Of a stretch of DNA of 64,000 bases, positions 2,802-61,520 are shown piece after piece. Numbering within the stretch: the first letter of the stretch is position 1; each line of letters begins with the position of its first letter. Origin of the DNA: Xanthobacteraceae bacterium (GTDB lineage Bacteria > Pseudomonadota > Alphaproteobacteria > Rhizobiales > Xanthobacteraceae); the NCBI GenBank assembly GCA_023954195.1, contig JAMLIK010000003.1:62001-126000 (forward strand). Direction: 5' to 3'. Position numbers and translations under genes: made by a program. The notes below the pieces were generated by a model. The model had not been told where the DNA came from. It did not search any database and saw only the letters and a program-made list of their open reading frames with translations.

Positions 2802-5327
2802 TTACCGTTTACAGGGCTGTCCGTTTGGTTGGACGCAACGCTTGGCGGCTTGCGGTGCCGGACGGGCCGCGGGTGGTGGCGGAGGACGAACGACTGGTCG
2901 TGCAACCGCAACTGGATGCGGAGCCGTGCGCACAACGGCCGGCGGAACAGGGCGCGACATTTGAGGCGGTTGTGGAGGAGCCGGCCGCGCCATCGGCGGA
3001 GGCGCCGGCCGTGCAACCGCCGCTCGCGGTGGGATAGGGCGGACGGCGGGCGGCGGAGCGGGGCGTGCCATCTGCGCGGGTCGCGGCGCCACCCGCGCAT
3101 TCGGCGGTGAGACGACGTGCGCCGTTGGAGGCGGAGCCGGGCGCACAATGCGTGGCGACATGGTTGTTACCGGACGCAGTCCTTGCTGAAGATGCTGGAC
3201 TGTCGGAGCCGGCCGACCGCGCTGACTGGGCAATGGCTGGACGGCAGTTTTGCTGCCCGATTGCAAGGATGGCACAGCCGGTGGCGGCAGTGTCCCATGC
3301 TGCGCCTGCGGATGCGGAGGCTGAGTCGAGGACGGCATTGTGGCGCTCGCCGGAGGCGCTGAATGTGAGCCCGCGGCGCCAGATAACGGCTGCACCGGTG
3401 GTTTGCCGCCGGTCGGTGCAAGCGGGGTTTGCGGTTTACCATTTGTTGACGGCAGCGGTTGTCCGCCGGGAGTGCCCGGCAATGGAGATGTAGCCGCTTT
3501 GCGATCCAGTGAAGCAGGCACCTGTTGGCCCGACGGGGTGGGCAGTTGGCCGGGCTGCTTGATCGTAGGTTGTGGTCCTGGCATCAGGGGCTTGGTCTGC
3601 TGCGCGGGTGTTGGCGGACTGTGCTGCGGCATGGTCATCGCCGCCTTTTTCGCCACTGTTTTCGGCAACGACGGCGCCAGCAAAGCGGCGCCGGCGACTG
3701 CGGCACCTGCCGCCGCGATCCCGACAGCGGCTCCATGCGAGGGAGCGGCCGCGACGCTCGGCATATTCGGCGTCGCATGCAGTCCCGGTGGCGGCGCGGC
3801 AGGAGAGGTTGCCGTCGGGTTCGTAGCGGCCGGTTGCGGAGCAAGCGCCTGCACCGGCGTGACCGTCTGTGCCTGGCCGCCCGGCCTGGTGATCGTAACC
3901 ATGTTGGTGGTGTTGTTGATCACGACGGTGTTGTGAATGTTGTTGTAGATGATGTTCTGCGGCGGCGGCGCGATGTATGGCGGCGGGCTGTAATATACCG
4001 GCATCGGCACGTAATCGGGGACCGGCAGGACAAACGCCGCGAAGACGGGGGGCGGTGGCGCCAGCACGACGAAGTCCGGTGGCGGCGGCGGCAGGAAAAA
4101 GACCGGTGGCGGCGGTGGCGGCGCGAAATCGTAATCCGGATCGTCAAAAACAAGCATCGGCTGACGGAAATACACCACCTCGTCCTCGGGCGGCGGCGGC
4201 ACATCATAGCTGATTGCCGCAAAGGTCGGCGGAGGCTCGAATGCCGCGGCGAGATACGCGAGGCGGCGATGGGCGTCGGCGACATGCGGGCCGCGCGGAT
4301 AGCGGCGCAGATACGACCAATAGGCCTGCGGCGTATCTACATTCCGCGTGTGCCTCCAGGTGATCGCTTCCCGGCGCGCGGCGACGATGGCGCGAACCCG
4401 TCTCGCCATCGGGTCGTCGGGATAGGCGGCGAGGAAGTCGAGATAGCCTCGTAACGTGTCGCGATCGAGAGCGGCGACATAAGCATCCTGCGCGTCGAGA
4501 TCGCGGATCGGCTTGGTGCGCATCGTTGCGGTCTGCGCGGTGGATGCCGCAGGCGGCGGTGCGTCGGGTGCGCGATCGAAGAACATCACCGGCGCTTCGA
4601 CCTTCGACGTGTCCCAGGGGACTTCGCCGCCCTTAGTTGTTTCATTGACGCGCAGACGGGTCCGATCGAACACCTCGGCAAGCGGCAGGCCGCCGGTGCG
4701 GATCATTTCCGCAAGGGCCTGAGCATAGGCGCCATACGGTCCCTGCTCCTTCGGAGCCACGGTGCCGGGCGTCGCGTTGAAGGCGATCAACATGTGCGGC
4801 TCCGGCTCCACCAGAGCGAGACCGCTGGCCAACGGCTGGCCCGATTGGGCGAACGGGTTCGCGCGCGCGGCATCGAGGACGACGATGCCCGCTTTGATGT
4901 TCAGCGCCGCCAGCGGCCGGATGTAGTCCGATAGCCGCAAGGCTTCCAACGGCACGTCGGTATCGCGCGCGAGCTTTGCATCGATCGGCACGAAGTAATT
5001 CTCACCCTCGAGCTGCACGCCATACCCGCCGAGATAGATAAAGGCGACGGTGTCGGGGCCGGACGCGCTGACCTTGTCGAGAAACTCGCGGAATGTGCGG
5101 CGCAGGGTATCCTGATCGAGATCGCGCGCGCCGACCACGTCGAAGCCGGCGGCCTGTAGCGTTTGGGCGATGAGGCCGGCATCGTTTGCCGTGGTTGGTA
5201 ATGCTTCCGGCTGATAGGCGGCGTTGCCGATGACAAGAGCAACGCGCTTTTCAGCTTGCTGCGCGTTGGCCGGGGGCAGTGATGTGAACGCGACGAGTAC
5301 GAATGCAATGCAAGCCAGGAGGCGCAT
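2802..5327 (-). CDS. secreted caspase-like (peptidase C14 fold) protein, catalytically degenerate, with proline-rich tail
   Basis: About 841 residues. The ATG at 5327 has GGAG eight bases upstream and begins a clear signal peptide ending near ANA (residue 22), so the protein is exported. Residues about 27-245 form a caspase-like domain, opening with EKRVALVIGNAAY. In active family members the histidine sits in a GHG motif and the cysteine in LDACR. Here these read GYG (Tyr102) and LDAAR (Ala154), so both catalytic residues are replaced. A middle part (about 280-390) is helical with short repeat-like segments. The remainder is very rich in Pro, Ala and Gln and probably disordered, perhaps cell-wall- or protein-binding. 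It is probably a non-proteolytic binding or scaffold protein (inference). It stands alone. Confidence 0.85.
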   Translation of the reverse strand: MRLLACIAFVLVAFTSLPPANAQQAEKRVALVIGNAAYQPEALPTTANDAGLIAQTLQAAGFDVVGARDLDQDTLRRTFREFLDKVSASGPDTVAFIYLGGYGVQLEGENYFVPIDAKLARDTDVPLEALRLSDYIRPLAALNIKAGIVVLDAARANPFAQSGQPLASGLALVEPEPHMLIAFNATPGTVAPKEQGPYGAYAQALAEMIRTGGLPLAEVFDRTRLRVNETTKGGEVPWDTSKVEAPVMFFDRAPDAPPPAASTAQTATMRTKPIRDLDAQDAYVAALDRDTLRGYLDFLAAYPDDPMARRVRAIVAARREAITWRHTRNVDTPQAYWSYLRRYPRGPHVADAHRRLAYLAAAFEPPPTFAAISYDVPPPPEDEVVYFRQPMLVFDDPDYDFAPPPPPPVFFLPPPPPDFVVLAPPPPVFAAFVLPVPDYVPMPVYYSPPPYIAPPPQNIIYNNIHNTVVINNTTNMVTITRPGGQAQTVTPVQALAPQPAATNPTATSPAAPPPGLHATPNMPSVAAAPSHGAAVGIAAAGAAVAGAALLAPSLPKTVAKKAAMTMPQHSPPTPAQQTKPLMPGPQPTIKQPGQLPTPSGQQVPASLDRKAATSPLPGTPGGQPLPSTNGKPQTPLAPTGGKPPVQPLSGAAGSHSAPPASATMPSSTQPPHPQAQHGTLPPPAVPSLQSGSKTAVQPLPSQRGRPAPTVQHLQQGLRPVTTMSPRIVRPAPPPTAHVVSPPNARVAPRPAQMARPAPPPAVRPIPPRAAVARPAPPPMARPAPPQPPQMSRPVPPAVVRTAPHPVAVARPVVRPPPPPAARPAPQAAKRCVQPNGQPCKR

Positions 5328-5831
5328 GGATCTTGCTCCGATCATCGCAGATGCCCTGTGCATCTTATCAAAGAGGCCATGAACAACCCCTGAGCGAAAG
5401 TGACCCAAATTATGGCGAGGTTTTGATGGTAGCCTGTCAGACAATCGATCAGTAAGTTGGAATTCTCCAGCTTTGCGTGGCATAGCAACTGAGCAAGCTG
5501 AGGGCGAAAACCCAGTGTGGTCAGGCGATGTTCGTCATTTGCCGATTTTTAAGACGCGATGACGACCCAGCTTCAATCCAAGCTTGCCAACTTAGCTGAA
5601 ACTTAGAAAGTCGCGCGAGTGGGCGACCCGATTCAAAGGCTTCTAACGCCCCACCCGTAGCCGACTTAGCAAATCGAACAAGCGCCGAAACGACGCGTAT
5701 GGTCGTTGGAACGCAGGTGTGGTGGCCTGTTCCGATGCCCCTCCATGTTGGATAGCCGCTGCTTTTGTGTCGGTAGGGCCATTGCGGTATAGCGAGGCGG
5801 AAGGCTCACCCCTGACTTGAGGCGTCCGCTA
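5328..5831. other. intergenic region, no gene seen
   Basis: About 500 bases between the start of the caspase-like gene and the end of the lipoprotein gene, both on the minus strand. It should contain the promoter of the caspase-like gene. Short open frames here are shadows of the upstream extension or of the lipoprotein gene. No RNA gene or clear repeat is seen. Confidence 0.5.
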
Positions 5832-6149
5832 TCAGTACCGTCCCCGGTAATAGCGTTCGTCGCATTCGGCAACATAGATGCGTCCATCAGGGGCGCGGTA
5901 GCGGCACATTGGCGGACCGCCTGGACGCGGGTTGGTTGAATCGGCGACGGCCGCTCCGAGCAAAGCACCGGCACCTGCGCCGAGGAGCGTACTTCCAGTA
6001 TTTCCGCCAATGGCCTGACCAAGGAGTGCGCCCGTGGCCCCGCCCAGAACGGCGCCAGTAGCGGTGCGCTGCTCTCCATAGGTCTGCGCGCAGCCCGCCA
6101 GGACTGCCCCGAGCAGGGCGATAAACGCTGTGGTCTTCAGATTAGCCAT
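5832..6149 (-). CDS. glycine-zipper outer-membrane lipoprotein
   Basis: 105 residues. The N-terminus is a lipoprotein signal with lipobox LAGC, so the cysteine near residue 20 should be lipidated. Residues about 30-70 form a glycine zipper (repeated GAxLGxxxG spacing), the motif that lets two helices pack in a membrane. The C-terminus carries two cysteines (MCRYRAPDG and VAECDERY). Similar small proteins are common envelope-stress lipoproteins of the 17-kDa-antigen/OmpA-glycine-zipper type. It sits next to another small exported protein. Confidence 0.85.
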   Translation of the reverse strand: MANLKTTAFIALLGAVLAGCAQTYGEQRTATGAVLGGATGALLGQAIGGNTGSTLLGAGAGALLGAAVADSTNPRPGGPPMCRYRAPDGRIYVAECDERYYRGRY

Positions 6150-44683: not shown

Positions 44684-46183
44684 ATGCTGATCGTGGAGAC
44701 GATTGCGCGGATACGGCGCGAGCACTTCATCAAGGGCAAGACGATCAAGGAGATCGCCCGTGACCTGAAGGTGTCGCGGAACACGGTCCGGAAGGTGCTG
44801 AGATCCGGAGAGACTTCGTTCGAGTATGAGCGTCAGGTGCAGCCGCGGCCCAAGCTTGGACGATGGGCGGCGGAACTCGATGAACTGCTGGCGGCGAACG
44901 CAGCCAAATCCGCGCGCGAACAACTGACGCTGATCCGGATCTTCGAAGAGTTGCGCGGACGCGGCTATGACGGCGGCTACGATGCCGTGCGGCGTTACGC
45001 CAGGCGCTGGAGCAAGGAGCGCGGGCAATCGACGGCGGCGGCCTATGTCCCGCTGAGTTTTGCGCCAGGAGAAGCCTATCAGTTCGACTGGAGCCACGAG
45101 ATCGTTCTCCTCAACGGCGTGACGGTACTCGTGAAGGTCGCCCACGTCCGGCTGTGTCATAGCCGCATGCTGTTCGTGCGCGCCTATCCGCGCGAGACGC
45201 AGGAGATGGTGTTCGACGCCCACGACCGGGCGTTCGCACTGTTCAAGGGCACCTGCAGTCGCGGCATCTACGACAACATGAAGACGGCGGTGGAGACGAT
45301 CTTCGTCGGCAAGGATCGCCGCTACAATCGCCGCTTCCTGCAGATGTGCAGCCACTATCTCGTCGACCCGGTCGCCTGCACGCCGGCGTCGGGCTGGGAG
45401 AAGGGCCAGGTGGAGAACCAGGTCGGGTTGGTCCGGGAACGCTTCTTCACGCCGCGGCTGCGGTTCAAAAAGCTGGACGAACTCAACGCCTGGCTGCTCG
45501 ACAAATGCATCGCCTACGCCAAGGCGCATCGGCATCCGGAGCTGTCCGATCAGACGATCTGGGATGTGTTCGAAGCCGAACGGCCGAAGCTCGTTCCCTA
45601 TGCCGGTCGGTTCGACGGATTCCATGCGGTGCCGGCATCGGTCTCCAAAACCTGCCTGGTGCGCTTCGACAATAACAAATACTCGGTCGCGGCCAGCGCC
45701 GTCGGACGTCCGGTCGAGGTTCAAGCCTATGCCGACCGTATCGTCATCCGTCAGGATGGACGGATCGTTGCGGAGCATCCGCGGTCGTTCGGACGCGGCG
45801 AGACGACCTACGATCCCTGGCACTACGTGCCGGTGCTCGCGCGCAAACCCGGGGCCTTGCGTAACGGCGCACCCTTCAAGGACTGGGTGCTGCCGGCCGC
45901 GATCGAACGGATCCGGCGCAGGCTCGCCAGCACCGACGACGGCAATCGACAGATGGTCGACATCCTCAATGCGGTGCTGACTGACGGTTTGTCGGCGGTC
46001 GAAGCCGCCTGCGCCGAGGCGCTTGGTCACGGCGTCCATTCCGCTGACGTCGTTCTCAACATCCTGGCTCGCCAACGCGAACCCGCTGCACCGGCCAACA
46101 TCATGACGCCGGCGGCACTGACGCTCCGCCATGCGCCGATCGCCGATTGCGCCCGCTACGACAACCTCCGGAGGACCATCTGA
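44684..46183 (+). CDS. istA: IS21-family transposase IstA
   Basis: 499 residues. N-terminal HTH ([20 protein letters not shown]), then an rve-type DDE domain: Asp in [12 protein letters not shown], Asp in IYDNMKTAV, Glu in [14 protein letters not shown]. The C-terminal beta domain follows ([11 protein letters not shown] ... HPRSFGRG). It cuts and joins DNA with the help of IstB. No frameshift; looks functional. Confidence 0.95.
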
Positions 46184-47037
46184 TGGAACGAACCCAAATC
46201 TTCGACCTCATGGGCGAGCTCAAACTCTACGGCATGAGGGCTGCCTTCGACGAGATCATGGCGACGGCCGTCAAGCGCCAGCACGAACCTCAGCGCATCG
46301 TCGGCGACCTGCTCAGCGCCGAGATCAACGAGAAGCAGGCGCGGTCGATCAAGTACCAGCTCACCATCGCCAAGCTGCCGTTGGCCAAGGATCTCGACGA
46401 CTTCCAGTTCGAAGGCACGCCGATCAATCAGACGCTCGTCAACGATCTCGCCGTCGGCGGCTTCATCGCCCAGCAGCGCAACGTCGTGCTCGTCGGCGGC
46501 ACCGGCACGGGCAAAACCCACCTGGCCATCGCAATCGCCAGAAGCTGCATCCGATCCGGCGCCCGCGGTCGCTTCTACAACGTGGTCGACCTCGTCAACC
46601 GCCTCGAGATCGAGACCCGTAACGGACGTCAGGGCCGGCTTGCCGAACATCTGACCCGGATGGACTTCATCGTGCTGGACGAACTCGGATATCTGCCCTT
46701 CGCCCAATCCGGCGGCCAGCTTCTGTTCCATCTCGTCAGTCGGCTCTATGAGCGCGCTTCCGTCATCGTCACTACCAATCTCGCCTTCGGCGAATGGCCC
46801 AGCGTGTTCGGCGACGCCAAGATGACCACCGCGCTGCTCGATCGGTTGACCCACCACTGCGACATCGTCGAGACCGGCAACGACAGCTGGCGCTTCAAAA
46901 GCCGCGACGACGATCACGCCGCCCGCGCTCGTCTCGTCTCCGCAATCCCGGCCAGCTCCGACGAGTCGAGCGCTACCCTCAAATCACGCCGCGCGAAGGG
47001 GTCAAAATTGGACGCCGATACGGGGTCAAATTTGTAA
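46183..47037 (+). CDS. istB: IS21-family helper ATPase IstB
   Basis: 284 residues. AAA+ ATPase related to DnaC: Walker [12 protein letters not shown], Walker [15 protein letters not shown], sensor [10 protein letters not shown]. Its ATG overlaps the istA stop (TGATG). The C-terminal 40 residues run through the terminal repeat of the element. Confidence 0.95.
46996..47036 (-). repeat. IS21 right terminal inverted repeat
   Basis: Mirror of the left end with two GGGGTCA boxes. The istB stop codon lies on the very last bases of the element, so the terminal codon may use host DNA. Confidence 0.7.
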
Positions 47038-47112
47038 GCCGATTGACAGCATGACGGCCGCCACGGTCATCGAGATCGCGGATCGGCGCGTGAAGAGTGG
47101 CGCAAACGTCAT
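47026..47112 (-). pseudogene. 5' end of an exported-protein gene truncated by IS21
   Basis: An ATG at 47112 overlaps the SDR stop codon (TGATG), as expected for the next gene of that operon. The host-derived part reads MTFAPLFTRRSAISMTVAA..., a signal-peptide-like start with a twin arginine, and then enters the IS21 end at 47036. The rest of the gene is absent on the other side of the IS. Confidence 0.6.
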
Positions 47113-50647: not shown

Positions 50648-50719
50648 GTTGCGGGGGTCCCCGCAGAAGGGGGTGTGTCGGCAACGAGAGTGCCGACCAG
50701 GGGGAAGACTTTTCCCCTC
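50648..50719 (+). repeat. structured intergenic repeat, copy 1
   Basis: About 72 bases closely matching 58811-58882 in the same orientation (about 90% by eye). It starts GTTGCG, contains CCCCGCAGAAGGGGG, then GTGTCGGCAACG...GTGCCGAC and CAGGGGGAAGACTTTTCCCC. Several stems are possible (GTCGGCA with TGCCGAC; GGGGGAA with TTCCCC). Confidence 0.7.
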
Positions 50720-51203: not shown

Positions 51204-52790
51204 GTGAACATTTATTGCAGGGGGGCAGCTCGCATCAGGCACATGGCGACTGGCGAGATCTATGAGATCGAGAGTGACGAACTGGATTGGGATGCGGTGG
51301 GCGGCGATGAACGCCAGATGGGGCCGGAAATCCATTATGAAGCGATATTAGAGCATCCCGCGTTGGGGGAGCTTAGATGGTCGCTGTGGGAATATCCCAT
51401 AGGGGCTGAGAACCGTCATGAGACGAATGTGGGAGGGCATGGAGTCCTTGAAGATTTTGAATTCGGCCTTGAACATGATGAGCCTGAGCCGGACGATCAG
51501 GAGGGAAATTTGGACAAACCAGGAGGAGCGGAAGAGCCAAAGCAGACATTCCGTTTCATTCGAGGGAGCGACGCCGATAGTCGCGAATATGATTGGGTCG
51601 AAGGCGCCGATATTGTTCGTAAGGCTCTGGCGGAGTCGTTGAACGCGAAAAATGTCGCTTTCCTACTCGGAGCGGGGTGCTCGTCGCTACGTGTAAACAA
51701 TGCCGAGGTTGGTATTCCAACCATGGCACCGCTTGCCGCAGAATTCACGAAAACGCGCAAAGAGGATGTTGCGGACTTTCCCACGATTGCGGAGCGTAAG
51801 GTGTTCGTCGAGCAACTCGGCATTGATATCAGCGCGAAGGAATATGCTCGTAATCTCGAACGCCTGATGGAACTGCTTCACAGCCTGCGGTTTGCGCTGG
51901 AGCGAAGCGCGCTTGAAGTATCGAAAAAGCAACTGATTGCCGTGGTGTCGGTCATAAAAAAGGTTCAGGCTTTTCTGTGGGAAAAATGCACCAAAGGGGC
52001 CTTTGCCGTCGGTGATCGCGGTGTTCTGAATCTGTATGAAACTTTTTATCGGAAACTCGTTCTGCGTGACCGTTCTCTGCCGCGGCCCTGGGTGTTCACG
52101 ACCAATTATGATCTTTTCAACGAGACGGCTATGGATAGGCTTGGCCTGCCATATGCAAACGGGTTTTCCGGTGTTGTCGAACGCCGCTTCAATCCCGCGA
52201 CTTTTCGGTACGCGTTAGCCGAGCAGCTCGATCTGACAAGCCGAAAATGGTCGGCAGTCGATGGGTTCGCTTATCTCTGCAAGATCCATGGTTCGATAAG
52301 TTGGACGGAGGACGATCACGGTCTCTTCCCGATTAGAGAAACAGCGGCTTCCGAAGTGCCCGGAAAGGTCATGATTTATCCAACGCCAGGGAAGCAGAAT
52401 GCCAGCCTCGGATCGCCTTATGCCGACCTTTTCCGTGAATTCCAGTCGCGGGTCGTCCGGGAACAGAGCGTTCTGTTTACGATGGGGTACGCATTCGGCG
52501 ATGAGCATATCAACAACATCATCTATCAGGCGCTGACGATACCCACGTTCCGACTGGTTATCTTTGTAGACCCCAATCTCGATGGCGATATCGCCAAATT
52601 GAAAGCTCTCAACGATCCCCGGATTTGGATCATAGGGGGTGAAGGCCCGGAAGCGGGACGCAAGGCGCATTACTTCGATACGATTATCGAGCAGTTCATG
52701 CCTCAGCGACCGAGTGAACGCATTGATGAGGCTGTCCGCAAGGTTCTGGATGCGATGGCTCCTTCTCAGAAGAAGGAGGAACAAGAATGA
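51204..52790 (+). CDS. SIR2-domain protein of a SIR2-HerA-type defence operon
   Basis: 528 residues from GTG (start chosen by ribosome site; ATG at 51144 or 51243 also possible). Residues about 14-92 form a separate N-terminal module (MATGEIYEIESDELDWD, MGPEIHYEAILEHP, LRWSLWEYPIGAEN), then an acidic linker. The SIR2 domain follows: GAGCS (156-160), TTNYD (299-303) and KIHGS (360-364), the NAD-binding and catalytic His-bearing motifs. SIR2 proteins in such operons deplete NAD+ on phage infection; the HerA partner assembles with them. The stop overlaps the HerA start. Confidence 0.88.
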   Translation: MNIYCRGAARIRHMATGEIYEIESDELDWDAVGGDERQMGPEIHYEAILEHPALGELRWSLWEYPIGAENRHETNVGGHGVLEDFEFGLEHDEPEPDDQEGNLDKPGGAEEPKQTFRFIRGSDADSREYDWVEGADIVRKALAESLNAKNVAFLLGAGCSSLRVNNAEVGIPTMAPLAAEFTKTRKEDVADFPTIAERKVFVEQLGIDISAKEYARNLERLMELLHSLRFALERSALEVSKKQLIAVVSVIKKVQAFLWEKCTKGAFAVGDRGVLNLYETFYRKLVLRDRSLPRPWVFTTNYDLFNETAMDRLGLPYANGFSGVVERRFNPATFRYALAEQLDLTSRKWSAVDGFAYLCKIHGSISWTEDDHGLFPIRETAASEVPGKVMIYPTPGKQNASLGSPYADLFREFQSRVVREQSVLFTMGYAFGDEHINNIIYQALTIPTFRLVIFVDPNLDGDIAKLKALNDPRIWIIGGEGPEAGRKAHYFDTIIEQFMPQRPSERIDEAVRKVLDAMAPSQKKEEQE

Positions 52791-54811
52791 GCCGTGACGA
52801 CCGAAAGCGGGCTATCGGCAAGGTCGTCTCCGTTGCGGCCGATAAATTTGTCGTCGAGATGCACGCTGGGACCGACAACTTCACGGTCGTCGGATTCGAT
52901 GACGTCCACTACGTGGCTCGCCTCGGCTCCTTTTTAATGATCCCAGCGCAGACGGAGTATGTCGTCGCAGAGGTCGTCGGGCTTCGCGAGCGAGATGTCG
53001 GCAGTTCAGATCGACGCGATGGTGATATGGACAAGGCGTCATCGGCGAAGTTTCTGGATGTCGTACCTGTGGGGATGCTTCCCCAAAAACTAGACGAGAA
53101 ATTTCGGTTCGGTGTGTCTATATTCCCGTCGCTCTACGCCGATGCGCTCTATGCTCTGGACGCCGAACTCGATCGCGTGTTTGAGACGGACGTTCCAAGC
53201 GAGCCAGCTCCGAAGAGGGGAGGACACCCGCCTATCCCGCCGGAGGCAACTCGATTCCGCGCGTTGACAATTGGTCGGTCCGTTATTTTCGACGGCTACG
53301 ATGTGAAGGTTCGAATTGATGACTTCTTCGGAGGTCATACTGCGGTCCTCGGAAATACCGGCAGCGGGAAGTCCTGCACGGTTGCATCCGTGATTCAGTC
53401 GCTGTTCGATAAACCCGACGAGCATCATGCCCGTGGTGCGACGTTCGTAATATTCGACGTCAATGGAGAGTATGCTCGGGCGTTGACGCCCTTGGCGAAC
53501 GGCAACGGAATCGGCGTTTCCCACGTCGTTCTCGATGGAACCGCTGCCGAAGGCCGTTTCCGGCTACCCCACTGGTTTCTTGAACAGTCGGAATGGGAGT
53601 TGCTCCTTCAGGCGAGCGAACGCACTCAGGTGCCAATCCTGCGTATGGCGTTGGGTCTATCGACGCTGTTTTCGGGAGGGAACGCACAGGAACTCAATGG
53701 TATCAAGAATCATATCTTAGCGACCTGCCTCAGTCAGATCCTGCGTGACGACACTGGGAGTCCGTCGAAACACGATCGTATGGTGGGCCTCCTTCAGCGC
53801 TTCAATACTCAGCAAATTAATAATCCAACGATTGCACAGTTCATCAGGATTAATTTCGGCCAGATGGCCAATCCCCAAGGGCTGACAAACTACCTTCTTG
53901 GTGGAGCACAGGGAGGAGGGTTCATTATCGATGGCCTGAAGATGCCTACCTATAAGTCTCTTCCATTTGAATTTTCTGCCCTTGGCGAAGCCCTGGACCT
54001 CGCGATCCTCTATGAGGAAGCGCATGGAAACCGGCAGATACGCGACTACTGCTCCCAGATGATCACCCGATTCAAATCGCTCGAAGAGCGGGCGGAATAT
54101 GCTTTCCTGCGACACGATCTACAGGGTGGTGGTCATGATCCATCCATGGGCACCTTTCTGTCGCAGCTTTTGGGTTTGGTGCAAAATGACGCAAACTGGG
54201 TAAAGCGAAATCAGCTCATCATCATCGACATGAACTCGGTCGAAGATGAAGTGGTAGAACTCGTGGCTTCCGTTCTGGCACGGATGTCGTTTCGTCTTCT
54301 TCGCCAAGCCGATCCACGCAATCGCTTTCCTGTCCATCTGCTTCTCGAAGAGGCGCATCGCTACGTTGCATCCACTCCATCGCGCTATGCGATCGATGCG
54401 AGCCGCGTCTTCGAGCGCATTGCGAAAGAGGGCCGAAAGTACGGCCTTTTCCTCTTGGTCGCATCTCAGCGACCGAGCGAGTTATCGAAGACGGTGCTTT
54501 CGCAGTGCTCAAACTTCGTGATCCACCGAATCCAAAATCCAGATGACCTCTCACATATTCGGCAGATGACACCGTTTATCTCAGATGCCGTTCTAAAGCG
54601 ACTTCCCTCATTGCCAAAGCAGCATGCTTTGGTTTTCGGGACCTCTGTCAATCTTCCGACAACATTCAAGGTCCGCGACGCTGATCCACTTCCTGCAAGC
54701 GATGACGCTAGAATCCGCGATCTTTGGTTCCACGAACAAGGGCGCGCGGCTCAGGTGCTTATTGGCGTGGCGCCTATTCAGCAGGCAGGTGCGGGAGACG
54801 TCTTCGACTAA
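52787..54811 (+). CDS. HerA-type ATPase/translocase
   Basis: 674 residues. N-terminal HAS-barrel-like part, then the FtsK/HerA motor: Walker A GNTGSGKS (189-196), Walker B LIIIDMNSVEDE, LLLEEAHRYV, and an arginine-containing VASQRPSELSKTVLSQC motif close to the end. Strong ribosome site AAGGAGG before the ATG. Overlaps SIR2 by four bases and the exonuclease by one. Hexameric DNA translocase and partner of SIR2. Confidence 0.92.
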   Translation: MSRDDRKRAIGKVVSVAADKFVVEMHAGTDNFTVVGFDDVHYVARLGSFLMIPAQTEYVVAEVVGLRERDVGSSDRRDGDMDKASSAKFLDVVPVGMLPQKLDEKFRFGVSIFPSLYADALYALDAELDRVFETDVPSEPAPKRGGHPPIPPEATRFRALTIGRSVIFDGYDVKVRIDDFFGGHTAVLGNTGSGKSCTVASVIQSLFDKPDEHHARGATFVIFDVNGEYARALTPLANGNGIGVSHVVLDGTAAEGRFRLPHWFLEQSEWELLLQASERTQVPILRMALGLSTLFSGGNAQELNGIKNHILATCLSQILRDDTGSPSKHDRMVGLLQRFNTQQINNPTIAQFIRINFGQMANPQGLTNYLLGGAQGGGFIIDGLKMPTYKSLPFEFSALGEALDLAILYEEAHGNRQIRDYCSQMITRFKSLEERAEYAFLRHDLQGGGHDPSMGTFLSQLLGLVQNDANWVKRNQLIIIDMNSVEDEVVELVASVLARMSFRLLRQADPRNRFPVHLLLEEAHRYVASTPSRYAIDASRVFERIAKEGRKYGLFLLVASQRPSELSKTVLSQCSNFVIHRIQNPDDLSHIRQMTPFISDAVLKRLPSLPKQHALVFGTSVNLPTTFKVRDADPLPASDDARIRDLWFHEQGRAAQVLIGVAPIQQAGAGDVFD

Positions 54812-55704
54812 TGACCAACGCCTCAGATTTGGAAGCTTTCGCTGCGGCGCTCGAAGCCAGCTCGGACTATCGAGTTCTTAGGCGTCTTCGACCTCGCCCC
54901 ACGGTTGAAGGATTCGATGTTGCTGAGACACGCACGGGCCTTATGGTCGATGTTGAGACGACAGGTCTCGATCCGGATCGGGATGAGATCATTGAACTCG
55001 CGATGGTGCCGTTCCGATACGCGCTTGATGGCACGGTTGTAGAGGTCCTGGAGCCTTTCGACCGTCTCCGTGAGCCGAGCAAACCGATTTCGTCCGAAAT
55101 CACTGTGTTGACGGGGATTACGGATGCAATGGTTGCGGGAAAGTCGATTGACCCCTCGGAAGTCACGATGTTTGCTGCGCCGGCGGCTGTAGTCATAGCC
55201 CACAATGCGGCGTTCGATCGGCGCTTTCTGGAGCGCTTCAGCCCTGTGTTTTCAACCAAGCCATGGGCGTGTTCTATGTCGGAGATCGACTGGGCAGCCG
55301 AAGGGTTCGAGGGCGCGAAGCTCTCCTATCTCGCGATGGCTCTAGGCTTTTTTTACGACCGGCATCGAGCTGCGAATGACTGCTTGGCCGCCATTGAGTT
55401 GCTTGCACGCGAGTTACCTCGTGCACGAGCGCCAGCCTTGGCAAAGCTGCTTGAGCGCGCGCGGTTGCCGACCTGGCGGATCTGGGCTGAGAACTCACCA
55501 TTTGAATTCAAGGACCTCCTAAAAGCGAGGGGATATCGTTGGAATGGCGAAGAAAACGGAAAGCCGAGATCTTGGTATGTTGATGTTTCCGACGCTGAGA
55601 AAGAAGCGGAAATCTCTTACCTTGCGCGAGAAATATACCAATATGAAGTAGACGTTCGAACAGTTCGTGTCACCGCCTATGATCGGTTTTCGAACAGAGT
55701 CTAG
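54811..55704 (+). CDS. DEDDh 3'-5' exonuclease (DnaQ-like)
   Basis: 297 residues. All five catalytic residues are visible: Asp47 and Glu49 (MVDVETTGLD), Asp136 (AHNAAFDRRFL), His185 and Asp190 (DRHRAANDCLAA). After the exonuclease fold (about 40-205) comes a C-terminal domain with FKDLLKARGYRWNGEENGKP. The ATG overlaps the HerA stop (TAATG), so it is a true third member of the operon. It could degrade single- or double-stranded ends exposed by HerA (inference). Confidence 0.92.
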   Translation: MTNASDLEAFAAALEASSDYRVLRRLRPRPTVEGFDVAETRTGLMVDVETTGLDPDRDEIIELAMVPFRYALDGTVVEVLEPFDRLREPSKPISSEITVLTGITDAMVAGKSIDPSEVTMFAAPAAVVIAHNAAFDRRFLERFSPVFSTKPWACSMSEIDWAAEGFEGAKLSYLAMALGFFYDRHRAANDCLAAIELLARELPRARAPALAKLLERARLPTWRIWAENSPFEFKDLLKARGYRWNGEENGKPRSWYVDVSDAEKEAEISYLAREIYQYEVDVRTVRVTAYDRFSNRV

Positions 55705-55777: not shown

Positions 55778-57595
55778 TCAGAACTTAGTTGATCGAAGTA
55801 ATTGCAGCGCTCTCTCCAACCCTTCCTGGCTCTGGGCGGCGACCTCGATTGGTCGTGGGGCAACGGCATCACCCAGAGATCGTAGATGAGAGTTGCCGGT
55901 TGTCAGCCAGAGATTGCGACGCTCGTTATCTCTGATCGCTGTCTCCGCGGCAGTGCGCAGCTTGCTCTTCCTCTCCCCCTGTTGAGTTACCATGCGCATT
56001 TGACGATCTTTTTCGGCTTGGCGTCGCGCCTCTATGGCTCGTTGCTCGTCGGCCGCCTTGCGAGCCAAGTCGTCTGCAATACGTTGTTGATGTCGCTCTT
56101 CTGCTTGTCGCTGTAGTTCTTCGTGGCGGCGTTTGCGCTCCGCTTCGGCTAACTCTTCGCGTCGGCGCTCTTCGTCACGTTCTTGTTGACGTTCGGTACG
56201 TTTCGTGTCCAGCAGAGCGTCCCAAGCGGCGGCGTCAGGCGCCGGCTGCGTTACCCATCGAGCCGATGCGCCCCATCCTTTGCCGGGCAAGGGCAAGCGA
56301 TAGCGGAAGTGCTCGTCACGACCAGGCCACGCACGGAGCACCTCGTCGTCAGAGACCAAAGGATCAGGGGCGTGCTTTCCGCACGCTGGGCACTTCTGGC
56401 GGGCTCGCTTTGGTTGGAAGTATGCACTTTCACCGCCGTCGCTCAATGGCCCCAAGGGAAGACCGACTTTCCTCGATAGTGCTTCGGCTGTCGAAAGGAT
56501 CGGTTCATACCAGCGCCACTCGTCGCGCACGACTTTGACGGGAAGTGTGCGCGGTCGGCGAGGATGTCCGATGAGGAGATGGGTAATCCTGAGAAAACGA
56601 GCTTTGCAGTCTGAACATTCTTCTGCGTAATGCACGAAGGCTCCTGGCACAACCTCGGTGTGTTCCTTGCCTCGCCAGGTCTTGCTACCTTCGAGGATGG
56701 GACGGAGCTGACGCGCGAGCGAGTTGGAAAGGTCGTCGGATGCGAGCTGGAAACTCGACGCTTGGTAGCCGCGAAGATGCGGAGCATTGACGCGCAACTG
56801 TAGGATGGCGCCGGCAAATTGATCTGCGCCGATCTGTTTTCCGTCAACAGGACGAAAAATCGTCGGTAAAAGCGACGGGCCTAACTCGCCGAGCAAAATC
56901 TGTTGTCGCTTGCCCTCGTGTTGCAGTTCGAAGCAAGCCGGGATGGTTCCCTGTAGATCGATTTTGTACTTCCATCCAGGAATGGTGCGGATGAGTCGAG
57001 CAAGTTCGTTTGCCATCCCCACTTGGCGCTCAACGGCGCCGAGCAGGCCCCTGACTGCCGCCCCGACACTTGCCATCTGTTCTCGGATTGAGGTTCCGTG
57101 GACGGGAGCTTGTAGGCCGTCGCCAAAATCGTTGAAGTGATTTCTCGGACCTTTGAGCCAGAATGCGGAAACCTCCGAGGCTTCGAATCTGTCGTTACGT
57201 GCCCCAGTCCGTCGTTTTGCCTGCGCCGAAAGCTGGACTTCGATTGCGATCTTGATGCTGCCGCGTATGGCTAGAGCGTCGGCGCGCCAGCCGTCGCCTG
57301 AGACCTCAACATCTGCCTGCCATCCTACCAGAGATTGAACTGCTCTTGCCGCGGCGGCCTTCAAGGACTCATGTTCGTCAGATTCGCCGCTGGAAGAGCA
57401 GCGATCGTAGCCGGACTTGTGGGCAAAATAGCGCAGATCGAGCGGACTGTGGCTGGCATAAGCTGGGGCATCGCAGCAGGACATACGGAGCCGATTTTCT
57501 GTCCCCTTTGACGCACGCTGCGCCTCTGACCAGTCCCCGTCCGAGCAGAGGATAGAAACTATTTCGCGGCCATCGAGCTTAGCCTTCAGAGGCAT
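55778..57595 (-). CDS. CoiA-like nuclease with coiled-coil tail
   Basis: 605 residues. The N-terminal 200 residues match the competence CoiA/restriction-like nuclease family: YFAHKSGYDRC, EHESLKAAAA, WRADALAIRG and IAIEVQLSAQ (PD-(D/E)XK fold, with the E-x-Q ending typical of CoiA). A middle part has two CxxC pairs (ECSDCKARF and KCPACGKHA), a likely zinc site. Residues about 460-560 are a long Glu/Arg/Gln coiled coil. The ATG at 57595 has GGAG five bases upstream. Convergent with the SIR2 operon, 73 bases away. Confidence 0.8.
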   Translation of the reverse strand: MPLKAKLDGREIVSILCSDGDWSEAQRASKGTENRLRMSCCDAPAYASHSPLDLRYFAHKSGYDRCSSSGESDEHESLKAAAARAVQSLVGWQADVEVSGDGWRADALAIRGSIKIAIEVQLSAQAKRRTGARNDRFEASEVSAFWLKGPRNHFNDFGDGLQAPVHGTSIREQMASVGAAVRGLLGAVERQVGMANELARLIRTIPGWKYKIDLQGTIPACFELQHEGKRQQILLGELGPSLLPTIFRPVDGKQIGADQFAGAILQLRVNAPHLRGYQASSFQLASDDLSNSLARQLRPILEGSKTWRGKEHTEVVPGAFVHYAEECSDCKARFLRITHLLIGHPRRPRTLPVKVVRDEWRWYEPILSTAEALSRKVGLPLGPLSDGGESAYFQPKRARQKCPACGKHAPDPLVSDDEVLRAWPGRDEHFRYRLPLPGKGWGASARWVTQPAPDAAAWDALLDTKRTERQQERDEERRREELAEAERKRRHEELQRQAEERHQQRIADDLARKAADEQRAIEARRQAEKDRQMRMVTQQGERKSKLRTAAETAIRDNERRNLWLTTGNSHLRSLGDAVAPRPIEVAAQSQEGLERALQLLRSTKF

Positions 57596-57718
57596 TACAG
57601 CTCCGCGTCGATGACACGCCGGCGCGCGATGGTCATCGATCTCGAGCATTGTCGAATCTGGTCCGTTAACAGCAGCTTGAGCCGTAGATTCTTGTGTCCG
57701 GAGATCATGTTTGAGAGC

Positions 57719-58492
57719 CTATCTCGTGTTGAACTCCATATAGGTGGAATAGGCGCGCATTCCCTTAGCGGCATTCGATTTGGCTACGACCGTTCGATTA
57801 ATCCGCTGTTGCAGATACTCGCAAACTGCATTGAACTTCTCAATTGGTAGTAGCCGCCAAGGGGCACCGAAATTGCTCTCAATGTTCTTGGATATCGCGC
57901 CATAGCTGAATTTCGACGCGCGCATCCGGTCTGCACCGGCAAATTTATTGTATCGGTCGATTAGATATTGCACATAGCGCGTGGTTTCCTGATCAGAACC
58001 GATCGTTCCGGGTGGTGCATTAATGCTGATAGAGCGACGGGTGGTGCGCACATGGACTTGGTGCGCTTGAATGGCGCCGGGACTGTTGATCGCGATATTG
58101 CCGCTGTTCTGGCCGATCGTGATCCGGTCGAGGTCGTTCAAGAGAAGCTTTGCGAATATGAGATCTGCCGGTTGCTCGGCTCGGCCGGCGGCGCTTTCGT
58201 GAATGGTCTTCATGTCTTGCAGAACATCAACCGTATAGATCTGCGGCTCCCCGTCGACAACTTTGTGATGATGTCTGCACAAGAGGAGGAGGTTGCCAGA
58301 ATCGTTCCGGCCTTTGTCAGATTGTGAAGGATCGTAGCGAGGGCCTCCGGGGCTGCGAGCAGCGATATGACAAATTTCGCCAGTGACGTTACCCGCGGTT
58401 TCGATGATTGGCAGCGTGCATCTTGGGAATGCGCAGGTGTTTCCGGAAAGAGCGAATAATCGCTTTATGGTCTTAGCCGTCGGTTCTGCCAT
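57719..58492 (-). CDS. HNH endonuclease-like protein
   Basis: 257 residues. N-terminal HNH/zinc-finger nuclease domain: NTCAFPRC, EICHIAARSPGGPRY, LLLLCRHHHKVVDG. A linker (about 95-160) with polar, Asn- and Thr-rich repeats leads to a helical C-terminal domain (165-257) of unknown role. Same strand as the CoiA-like gene, 123 bases upstream of it, and probably part of the same defence block. Confidence 0.85.
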   Translation of the reverse strand: MAEPTAKTIKRLFALSGNTCAFPRCTLPIIETAGNVTGEICHIAARSPGGPRYDPSQSDKGRNDSGNLLLLCRHHHKVVDGEPQIYTVDVLQDMKTIHESAAGRAEQPADLIFAKLLLNDLDRITIGQNSGNIAINSPGAIQAHQVHVRTTRRSISINAPPGTIGSDQETTRYVQYLIDRYNKFAGADRMRASKFSYGAISKNIESNFGAPWRLLPIEKFNAVCEYLQQRINRTVVAKSNAAKGMRAYSTYMEFNTR

Positions 58493-58810: not shown

Positions 58811-58882
58811 GTTGCGAGGGTCTCCCCGCAGAAGGGGGCGTGTCGGCAACGCAGTGCCGACCAGGGGGAAGGCTTTCCCCCG
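58811..58882 (+). repeat. structured intergenic repeat, copy 2
   Basis: Second copy of the 50648-50719 repeat, same orientation: GTTGCGAGGG, CCCCGCAGAAGGGGG, GTGTCGGCAACGCAGTGCCGAC, CAGGGGGAAGGCTTTCCCCC. Stems GTCGGCA/TGCCGAC and GGGGGAA/TTCCCCC are perfect. The rest of the 58493-58955 gap has no supportable gene. Confidence 0.7.
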
Positions 58883-59971: not shown

Positions 59972-61339
59972 CTATGCCGCCTTCCTGACTCGCGGAACCT
60001 TTACCTCCCGCTGTTCGAAGGCCTCTCGCGCACGTGCAACCTGCCGTCGCGCGGCCCCGCGACCTAGCCAGTCGCGAAGTTCTGGTTGCGCCGTCAACGT
60101 ATTTCCGAGTGCTGAAAAGATGGTGTTGCTGATCGCCTGCTGTTGGGCGCGCAGATGATCCTCCAGCAGCTTGTGTCGCGTGATGTACCCTGAATTCACG
60201 CCGGGGACCGAATGATTCATCAGCATGCGGGCGTCGAGTTCCGAGACGCCGGCAGGGGTTGCGACAGTGCGATACGTTTGGCGTAGCTCGTTGCCCCACT
60301 TCGACAGCACCGCTCGATCTTCCTTCTGCTCGACCAGATGACCATCGGCACCATCGGCAGGAAACAGCCAGTCTTTCGCCTCATAGGGGTGCATCTGCCG
60401 GCCGAACCGAATGGAGCGCATGAGGCAATTGATCGCCTGCCGGGACAGCGGGATGTCGAAGGCACGATCGGCGCCTCCCTTCGGGCGCGGGATGTGAAGA
60501 ACCCGACGACGCAGATCGAGATGTTCGAGCCGAGCTTCTTTCAAGGCCGTTGGACGCGATGCCGAGAGGAGGGTGAACAGATGAAATTCGCGCCGTATCG
60601 GATTGTCAAGTGTCGCAGCCTCGACGAACCAGCCTTTCAAGTCGGCGACGCCCATCCCTGTATCCCGTCGCTTCTCGTGATTCCAATCGACGCTATCGAC
60701 GGGATTGTCGGGCGGCAGTTCGCGATTGGTCTTGCGGGCGTGATTGTAGATGGCGCGGAAGGTGCGCATGCTGCCATTCGCGATGTAGGGTCCATGCTTT
60801 TCACTGATGGCGTCGTGCTTTGCGGAGACCTGGCCCGGATCGTCACCAAGTTGTTTCAGAGGCGTATCCAGCCAGTCCTTGAAAATGCGCTCGACGTGAT
60901 CGCGGTAGCTCTCGATCGTCCGCGCGCTCCGGTTCTTGCGCTCCATTGCGATTTTGTATCGGGCCCACGCCTCTTTGAGGGTGATCCCGACCGGGCCGGG
61001 CTTTTGCTCGTTTGCGAGGTCAGCAATCGTCGATGCCTTCGTGGCTTTCTCGTCGCTCTTGGGGTGTATGCCGCGACTAATTTGGATCAGATATTCCTTG
61101 GCCGCTGCACGCGCCGCACGGGTCGAGAGCTGCTTAGAATCGCCAATCGCGATGCGGATGGTGGAGGCACGTTTGCCCTGTTGGCGAAGGTCGCCCTGGA
61201 CCATAAAGGTCTTCTTTCGGGCTCCGACCATCAGGAAGAAGCCCTTTTGGTCGGTATCTCGGACAATGTAGCGTCCCTTTTCGGGCAGTGGCAAACGCTC
61301 GACTGTCTTATCGTTCAAGGGGATACGCATGTCGGCCAT
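59972..61339 (-). CDS. int: tyrosine-type site-specific integrase
   Basis: 455 residues. N-terminal arm-binding domain, a SAM-like core-binding domain (about 105-200) and the catalytic domain. Visible catalytic residues: Arg in LLSASRPTALKEA, Lys in IPRPKGGADR, and box II/nucleophile region LMNHSVPGVNSGY with Tyr. The first His of the usual HxLR box is Asn here (NELRQTYRT). ATG at 61339 has GGGAG seven bases upstream. It is the last gene before the tRNA-Arg fragment, as expected for the integrase of an island inserted in that tRNA. Confidence 0.9.
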   Translation of the reverse strand: MADMRIPLNDKTVERLPLPEKGRYIVRDTDQKGFFLMVGARKKTFMVQGDLRQQGKRASTIRIAIGDSKQLSTRAARAAAKEYLIQISRGIHPKSDEKATKASTIADLANEQKPGPVGITLKEAWARYKIAMERKNRSARTIESYRDHVERIFKDWLDTPLKQLGDDPGQVSAKHDAISEKHGPYIANGSMRTFRAIYNHARKTNRELPPDNPVDSVDWNHEKRRDTGMGVADLKGWFVEAATLDNPIRREFHLFTLLSASRPTALKEARLEHLDLRRRVLHIPRPKGGADRAFDIPLSRQAINCLMRSIRFGRQMHPYEAKDWLFPADGADGHLVEQKEDRAVLSKWGNELRQTYRTVATPAGVSELDARMLMNHSVPGVNSGYITRHKLLEDHLRAQQQAISNTIFSALGNTLTAQPELRDWLGRGAARRQVARAREAFEQREVKVPRVRKAA

Positions 61340-61520
61340 TTGCGAGCTCCCGAGATTCTGAAACGGTTTTTGAAACGGTTTTGGCGGAATGGGGTGTCTA
61401 ACGGGCTCCCTACGCCACCACAAGAGAATATGCGATAATCCATTGAATTACAAATAAAAATATGTTTATTCGGAAAGTTAGAAGTGCTGCCGGATAATGC
61501 CTCGTAAGGGACTTTTTGAA

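Follow-up and report, generated by a model that had tools for sequence, protein, structure and literature searches.

A recurrent but optional third gene for a DEDDh exonuclease behind SIR2 and HerA in a Xanthobacteraceae bacterium

Work on SIR2-HerA has treated it as a system of two genes, whose action reviews ascribe partly to NAD+ depletion and partly to DNA degradation. On contig JAMLIK010000003.1 of a Xanthobacteraceae bacterium, within the 64,000-nucleotide stretch that we analysed (the window), a SIR2-HerA pair runs without a gap into a third gene that encodes a putative exonuclease. This arrangement raises the question of whether the third gene is a genuine part of such loci and, if so, what it would contribute to defence.

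All three genes lie on the forward strand. The SIR2-family gene (51204..52790) starts with GTG and encodes 528 residues, a presumed NADase effector; the gene of the HerA/DUF87 DNA motor (52787..54811, ATG start, 674 residues) overlaps the SIR2 stop by 4 nt in the sequence ATGA (52787..52790), and the gene of the DEDDh 3'-5' exonuclease (54811..55704, ATG start, 297 residues) overlaps the HerA stop by 1 nt in TAATG (54809..54813). When junctions, SIR2, HerA and DEDDh motifs were re-read in the sequence and its translations, the description given in the earlier note, three overlapping genes with intact motifs, stood. Low dN/dS in all three genes and recurrence in distinct genera show that the trio is real and not due to chance, and the three genes are probably co-translated; scans for promoters and terminators performed no better than on shuffled sequences.

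The SIR2 motifs GAGCS, TTNYD and KIHGS lie at nt 51669, 52098 and 52281, and the protein matches Pfam SIR2_2, the PADLOC SIR2 model PDLC04090 (742.7 bits) and chain G of PDB 8yhx (E = 1.2e-39), with TTNYDLFNE and KIHGS aligned, so that the catalytic Asn and His of a SIR2-like domain are present. HerA carries a Walker A motif, GNTGSGKS, at nt 53351 and a Walker-B-like LLLEEAH at nt 54338, scores 1027.9 bits against the PADLOC HerA model PDLC04102 and matches both Pfam DUF87 and the HerA chains in the PDB. The identification of a SIR2-HerA pair is therefore secured by strong PADLOC scores and by matches to solved SIR2-HerA complexes. Since both proteins score far below the NCBIfam antiphage equivalog cut-offs (152 of 500 bits for NF042942, SIR2_antiphage, and 217 of 800 bits for NF042943, HerA_antiphage), we regard the pair as a distant subfamily of the known kind.

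Judged by these profiles, the pair itself is already known biology. As in the described SIR2-HerA systems (Nezha, GAO_19), SIR2 precedes HerA in overlapping genes with the same catalytic motifs, and the window proteins are homologous to the solved complexes 8yhx and 8j4u; in contrast to the two genes described there, a third overlapping gene for an exonuclease is present here, and the window SIR2 has an extra N-terminal region of about 100 residues. SIR2-HerA is described as a two-component complex of 12 SIR2 and 6 HerA subunits with NADase activity, besides which nuclease and helicase activities have been reported (PMC11559045, PMC12198126). HerA-DUF4297 and archaeal HerA-NurA also couple a HerA motor to a nuclease, but the nuclease here is a DEDDh exonuclease and is additional to SIR2; PADLOC, Pfam and NCBIfam profiles gave no DUF4297 or NurA match among the operon proteins. 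Searches for SIR2-HerA together with an exonuclease, DnaQ or a third gene returned no description of the trio in the open-access literature searched, which presents SIR2-HerA as two-component.

The SIR2 frame is open from 51144, and GGAGG precedes the GTG at 51204, where we set the start because the Met of a plasmid protein aligns to this codon. The TTG at 51510, which has a good ribosome site, was considered as the start and set aside in favour of the GTG on account of the upstream homology of about 98 residues, both starts being possible. The first ~100 residues of the frame fall outside the SIR2 domain; for the majority of other loci, homology to SIR2 begins at about residue 120-135 of the longest open reading frame, and the N-terminal region of about 98 residues that is fused to the SIR2 core (51204..51500, forward strand) is without counterpart in most homologues: among the 35 loci of the genome-contig scan, it occurs in three (L001, L002 and L011). 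It shares 74% identity with the first 98 residues of an otherwise unrelated plasmid protein of 286 residues (L110) and is perhaps a swappable domain. The C-terminal part of that plasmid protein contains an RHDCVH stretch reminiscent of HEPN proteins. In L011 (Rhizobium altiplani, 4415-6001), an in-frame stop interrupts SIR2 ahead of the catalytic motifs, and the HerA and exonuclease frames are intact.

The third protein belongs to family NF006615/PRK09182 (425 bits in NCBIfam, cut-off 207). Its catalytic domain (residues 45-198, 54943..55404, forward strand), matched by Pfam RNase_T and by structure, holds all five DEDDh residues previously reported, D47, E49, D136, H185 and D190, which are invariant in 29 aligned sequences. 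An AlphaFold2 model (pLDDT 89.6) matched DinG exo (Z 19.3), Pol III epsilon, PolC and TREX1/2, to which Foldseek added ExoX and ExoI; RNase T and oligoribonucleases also match in sequence comparison, more weakly. Because the closest matches in structure and sequence are for the most part exonucleases that act on DNA, DNA would be the likelier substrate, RNA or a short oligonucleotide being possible as well. The fold and catalytic residues are those of Exonuclease X, DinG-exo and TREX-type DEDDh enzymes, but identity to them is about 17-30% and the window protein adds a conserved C-terminal domain of 83 residues (215-297, 55453..55701, forward strand). W and Y/R positions of this domain are invariant in 27 sequences, five of which show a weak DUF5710 resemblance; taken alone, the domain gave no significant fold match and no sequence match in the PDB, a result that does not imply a new fold.

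To place the third gene among its relatives, we compared 35 loci from the genome-contig scan, which is biased to close relatives, and further loci from genome samples and plasmids. An intact exonuclease directly follows HerA in 25 relatives, each locus counted once. Its start overlaps the HerA stop in every exonuclease-positive locus compared, by 1, 4, 11 or 14 nt (some loci offering more than one possible start), which places it in the same operon as SIR2-HerA. Grouping HerA at 90% identity yielded 17 clusters whose identity to the window protein is 60% or more, eight with an intact exonuclease, one with a frameshifted one and eight without; four clusters at 48-54% identity all lack the gene. 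The adjacency check proposed in the earlier note thus finds the exonuclease to be not rare in homologous loci. Among the sampled genomes, 385 from the class and 397 from the order, full-length HerA at 64% identity or more was found in eight genomes, with the exonuclease intact in five, the window's own included, broken in two (L112 and L113) and absent in one; one further genome (L089) has HerA remnants only. Outer neighbours are common to 38 of 231 pairs of loci downstream and to 80 of 231 upstream, and since the flanks mostly differ, the trio is the conserved unit. Viral contigs scanned with HerA and the exonuclease contained no relatives.

Around the trio itself, one subgroup of loci has AbiEi/AbiEii-like genes added upstream. 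In L012 (9046-10914), the gene after the trio is QatA-like (496 bits), and a homologue stands after the trio in L013 and L014, which suggests a neighbouring Qat defence system in these three loci. A long open frame in L091 was considered as an exonuclease fusion and rejected, its upstream part looking like the translation of non-coding DNA.

Against relatives, dN/dS was 0.04-0.06 for SIR2, 0.03-0.04 for HerA and 0.05-0.08 for the exonuclease, rough values with dS near saturation, which indicate purifying selection on the exonuclease of the same order as on its two partners. The gene is also lost. One locus (L072) keeps a relic of residues 1-47 only, L112 combines a frameshift with the replacement of the first catalytic Asp by Gly, and L113 has two frameshifts, each beside an apparently intact SIR2-HerA; the frameshifts in L112 and L113 may be sequencing errors. 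Repeated decay or loss of this kind marks the exonuclease as an accessory rather than an indispensable third subunit. Additionally, the SIR2, HerA and exonuclease trees disagree, and in two loci (L018 and L033) the exonuclease is closer to its window counterpart (85-86%) than HerA is (71-72%), so single genes have been exchanged while order and overlap stayed. In the exonuclease tree, the SIR2-HerA-linked copies form two groups, and a group linked to Gabija lies near the smaller of them together with one DinB-linked copy. This tree hints that the exonuclease joined SIR2-HerA on two separate occasions but does not establish it, as a single SIR2-HerA group was not rejected (AU p = 0.061).

The link to Gabija comes from four alphaproteobacterial plasmids (L079, L080, L081 and L082), where the same exonuclease family provides the first gene of an exo-GajA-GajB operon, GajA being a nuclease and GajB a UvrD helicase; in L079 (7527-12394), GajA scores 1035 bits and GajB 838 bits. 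This GajA subfamily was not found at E 1e-100 in the 385 alphaproteobacterial genomes, and the link therefore rests on plasmid records. The family of the window exonuclease thus precedes gajA-gajB on these plasmids, whereas the window operon has neither gene, and its proteins match models of SIR2, HerA and RNase_T. In two gammaproteobacterial relatives of the plasmid form, a Shedu nuclease or no nuclease takes the first place, the former on an E. coli plasmid (L119, 2486-7941), where a Shedu nuclease gene precedes a related gajA-gajB pair. Exonuclease-family members are common on alphaproteobacterial plasmids in varied contexts: near NHEJ genes (Ku, LigD), PolX and DinB, after HipA, near plasmid replication genes, or alone. 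Relatives in Rhizobium phages are polymerase exonuclease subunits.

Other nucleases also occupy the place behind SIR2-HerA. Eight near-identical loci of the L004 type have a PD-(D/E)XK protein followed by a UvrD/PDDEXK protein and no exonuclease, and an HNH protein is encoded just downstream of SIR2-HerA in L032, again without the exonuclease; these amount to two events only. The remaining exonuclease-less loci have unrelated or opposite-strand genes in third place. The L004-type loci (4728-13993 in L004) span several genera, and Afipia OHSU_II-C1 has both forms, one of the L004 type (L030) and one with the exonuclease (L002). The third gene is a genuine, recurrent and optional addition drawn from a portable exonuclease family.

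The trio sits between conjugation genes, recognised by eye, and an integrase gene (59972..61423), and its G+C content of 54%, compared with 65% where the conjugation genes of the window lie, fits horizontal acquisition. Genes for a weakly CoiA-like protein (55778-57649) and an HNH protein (57719-58492) follow on the opposite strand, as does a GNAT/TacA toxin-antitoxin-like pair; the HNH protein resembles PADLOC HNH effector models at its N-terminus, and the CoiA-like and HNH genes are possibly further defence genes. A nearly identical region occurs in Afipia sp. 1NLS2 and OHSU_II-C1, the near-identity with 1NLS2 starting at position 47049, just past an IS21-like istA-istB pair at 44684-47037 (by eye). 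The cassette, together with its downstream genes, is bracketed by imperfect direct repeats at 50653-50717 and 58818-58881, a distance of 8.16 kb; contig C4 of the same genome carries a third copy, and a related stretch is found upstream of SIR2 in L012 and L018.

We give about even odds (0.5) to the reading that the SIR2-HerA module travels as cargo next to an integrated element's conjugation genes and carries an accessory DNA exonuclease that is useful but not essential. The core would consist of SIR2, depleting NAD+, and HerA, an ATP-driven DNA motor; the exonuclease, probably translationally coupled to them, would most likely remove or shorten 3' DNA ends available during infection, whether exposed by the HerA complex or belonging to phage replication, and would so add direct damage to phage DNA to the depletion of NAD+. 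Cooperation of the exonuclease with HerA and a contribution to protection are what we infer from several observations: the gene recurs as an overlapping third gene while the flanks mostly differ; it is under purifying selection like SIR2 and HerA, with invariant catalytic residues; its best matches are mostly DinG exo, PolC, Pol III epsilon, ExoX, ExoI and TREX1/2; the same family opens operons with the GajB helicase and the GajA nuclease; some loci without it have another nuclease just downstream (L004, L032); and nuclease and helicase activities have been reported for SIR2-HerA complexes. Against this reading stand the lack of the gene in half of the clusters close to the window and in every one of the four more distant ones, its decay in L072, L112 and L113, and the many family members in other contexts; the weaker RNase T and oligoribonuclease matches leave room for RNA or short oligonucleotides as its substrate.

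The overlap with HerA would equally keep in step with the motor an enzyme of control, one that trims the 3' DNA ends by which HerA-SIR2 would be activated, either sparing the cell self-toxicity or shutting the response down, and a 3' ssDNA-end trigger has been reported for another two-component system, HamAB (PMC12198126). We consider such a role unlikely: with the exonuclease missing from many loci and decayed in others beside an apparently intact SIR2-HerA, the core does not generally depend on it for restraint. The plasmid contexts near Ku, LigD, PolX and DinB and the polymerase subunits of Rhizobium phages would suit a repair or replication gene of mobile elements that travels behind SIR2-HerA by chance and has no role in defence. 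We doubt this to a similar degree, given the overlap in all exonuclease-positive loci compared, the recurrence in eight intact and one frameshifted cluster, the grouping of defence-linked copies in the exonuclease tree and the second link, to Gabija. Less probable still is that the exonuclease clears short DNA or RNA oligonucleotides made by the active complex, like the diDNases proposed in defence islands. In Gram-positive bacteria, DEDD dinucleases are located close to defence systems (PMC11706625), and this association of another DEDD subfamily with defence islands sets a general precedent. The weaker sequence matches do include oligoribonucleases, but the closest matches act on DNA ends and the protein has its extra C-terminal domain.

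Beyond this locus, the accessory-exonuclease reading extends more tentatively to the whole family, which may be a portable DEDDh exonuclease coupled to unrelated DNA-motor defences, as the last gene with SIR2-HerA and the first with Gabija, adding degradation of phage DNA in each, and which possibly joined SIR2-HerA twice. A natural three-gene form and close relatives that never had or have lost the third gene provide ready-made test pairs, which could show whether protection becomes broader or stronger with an additional DNA exonuclease and whether the same nuclease plugs into different defence motors.
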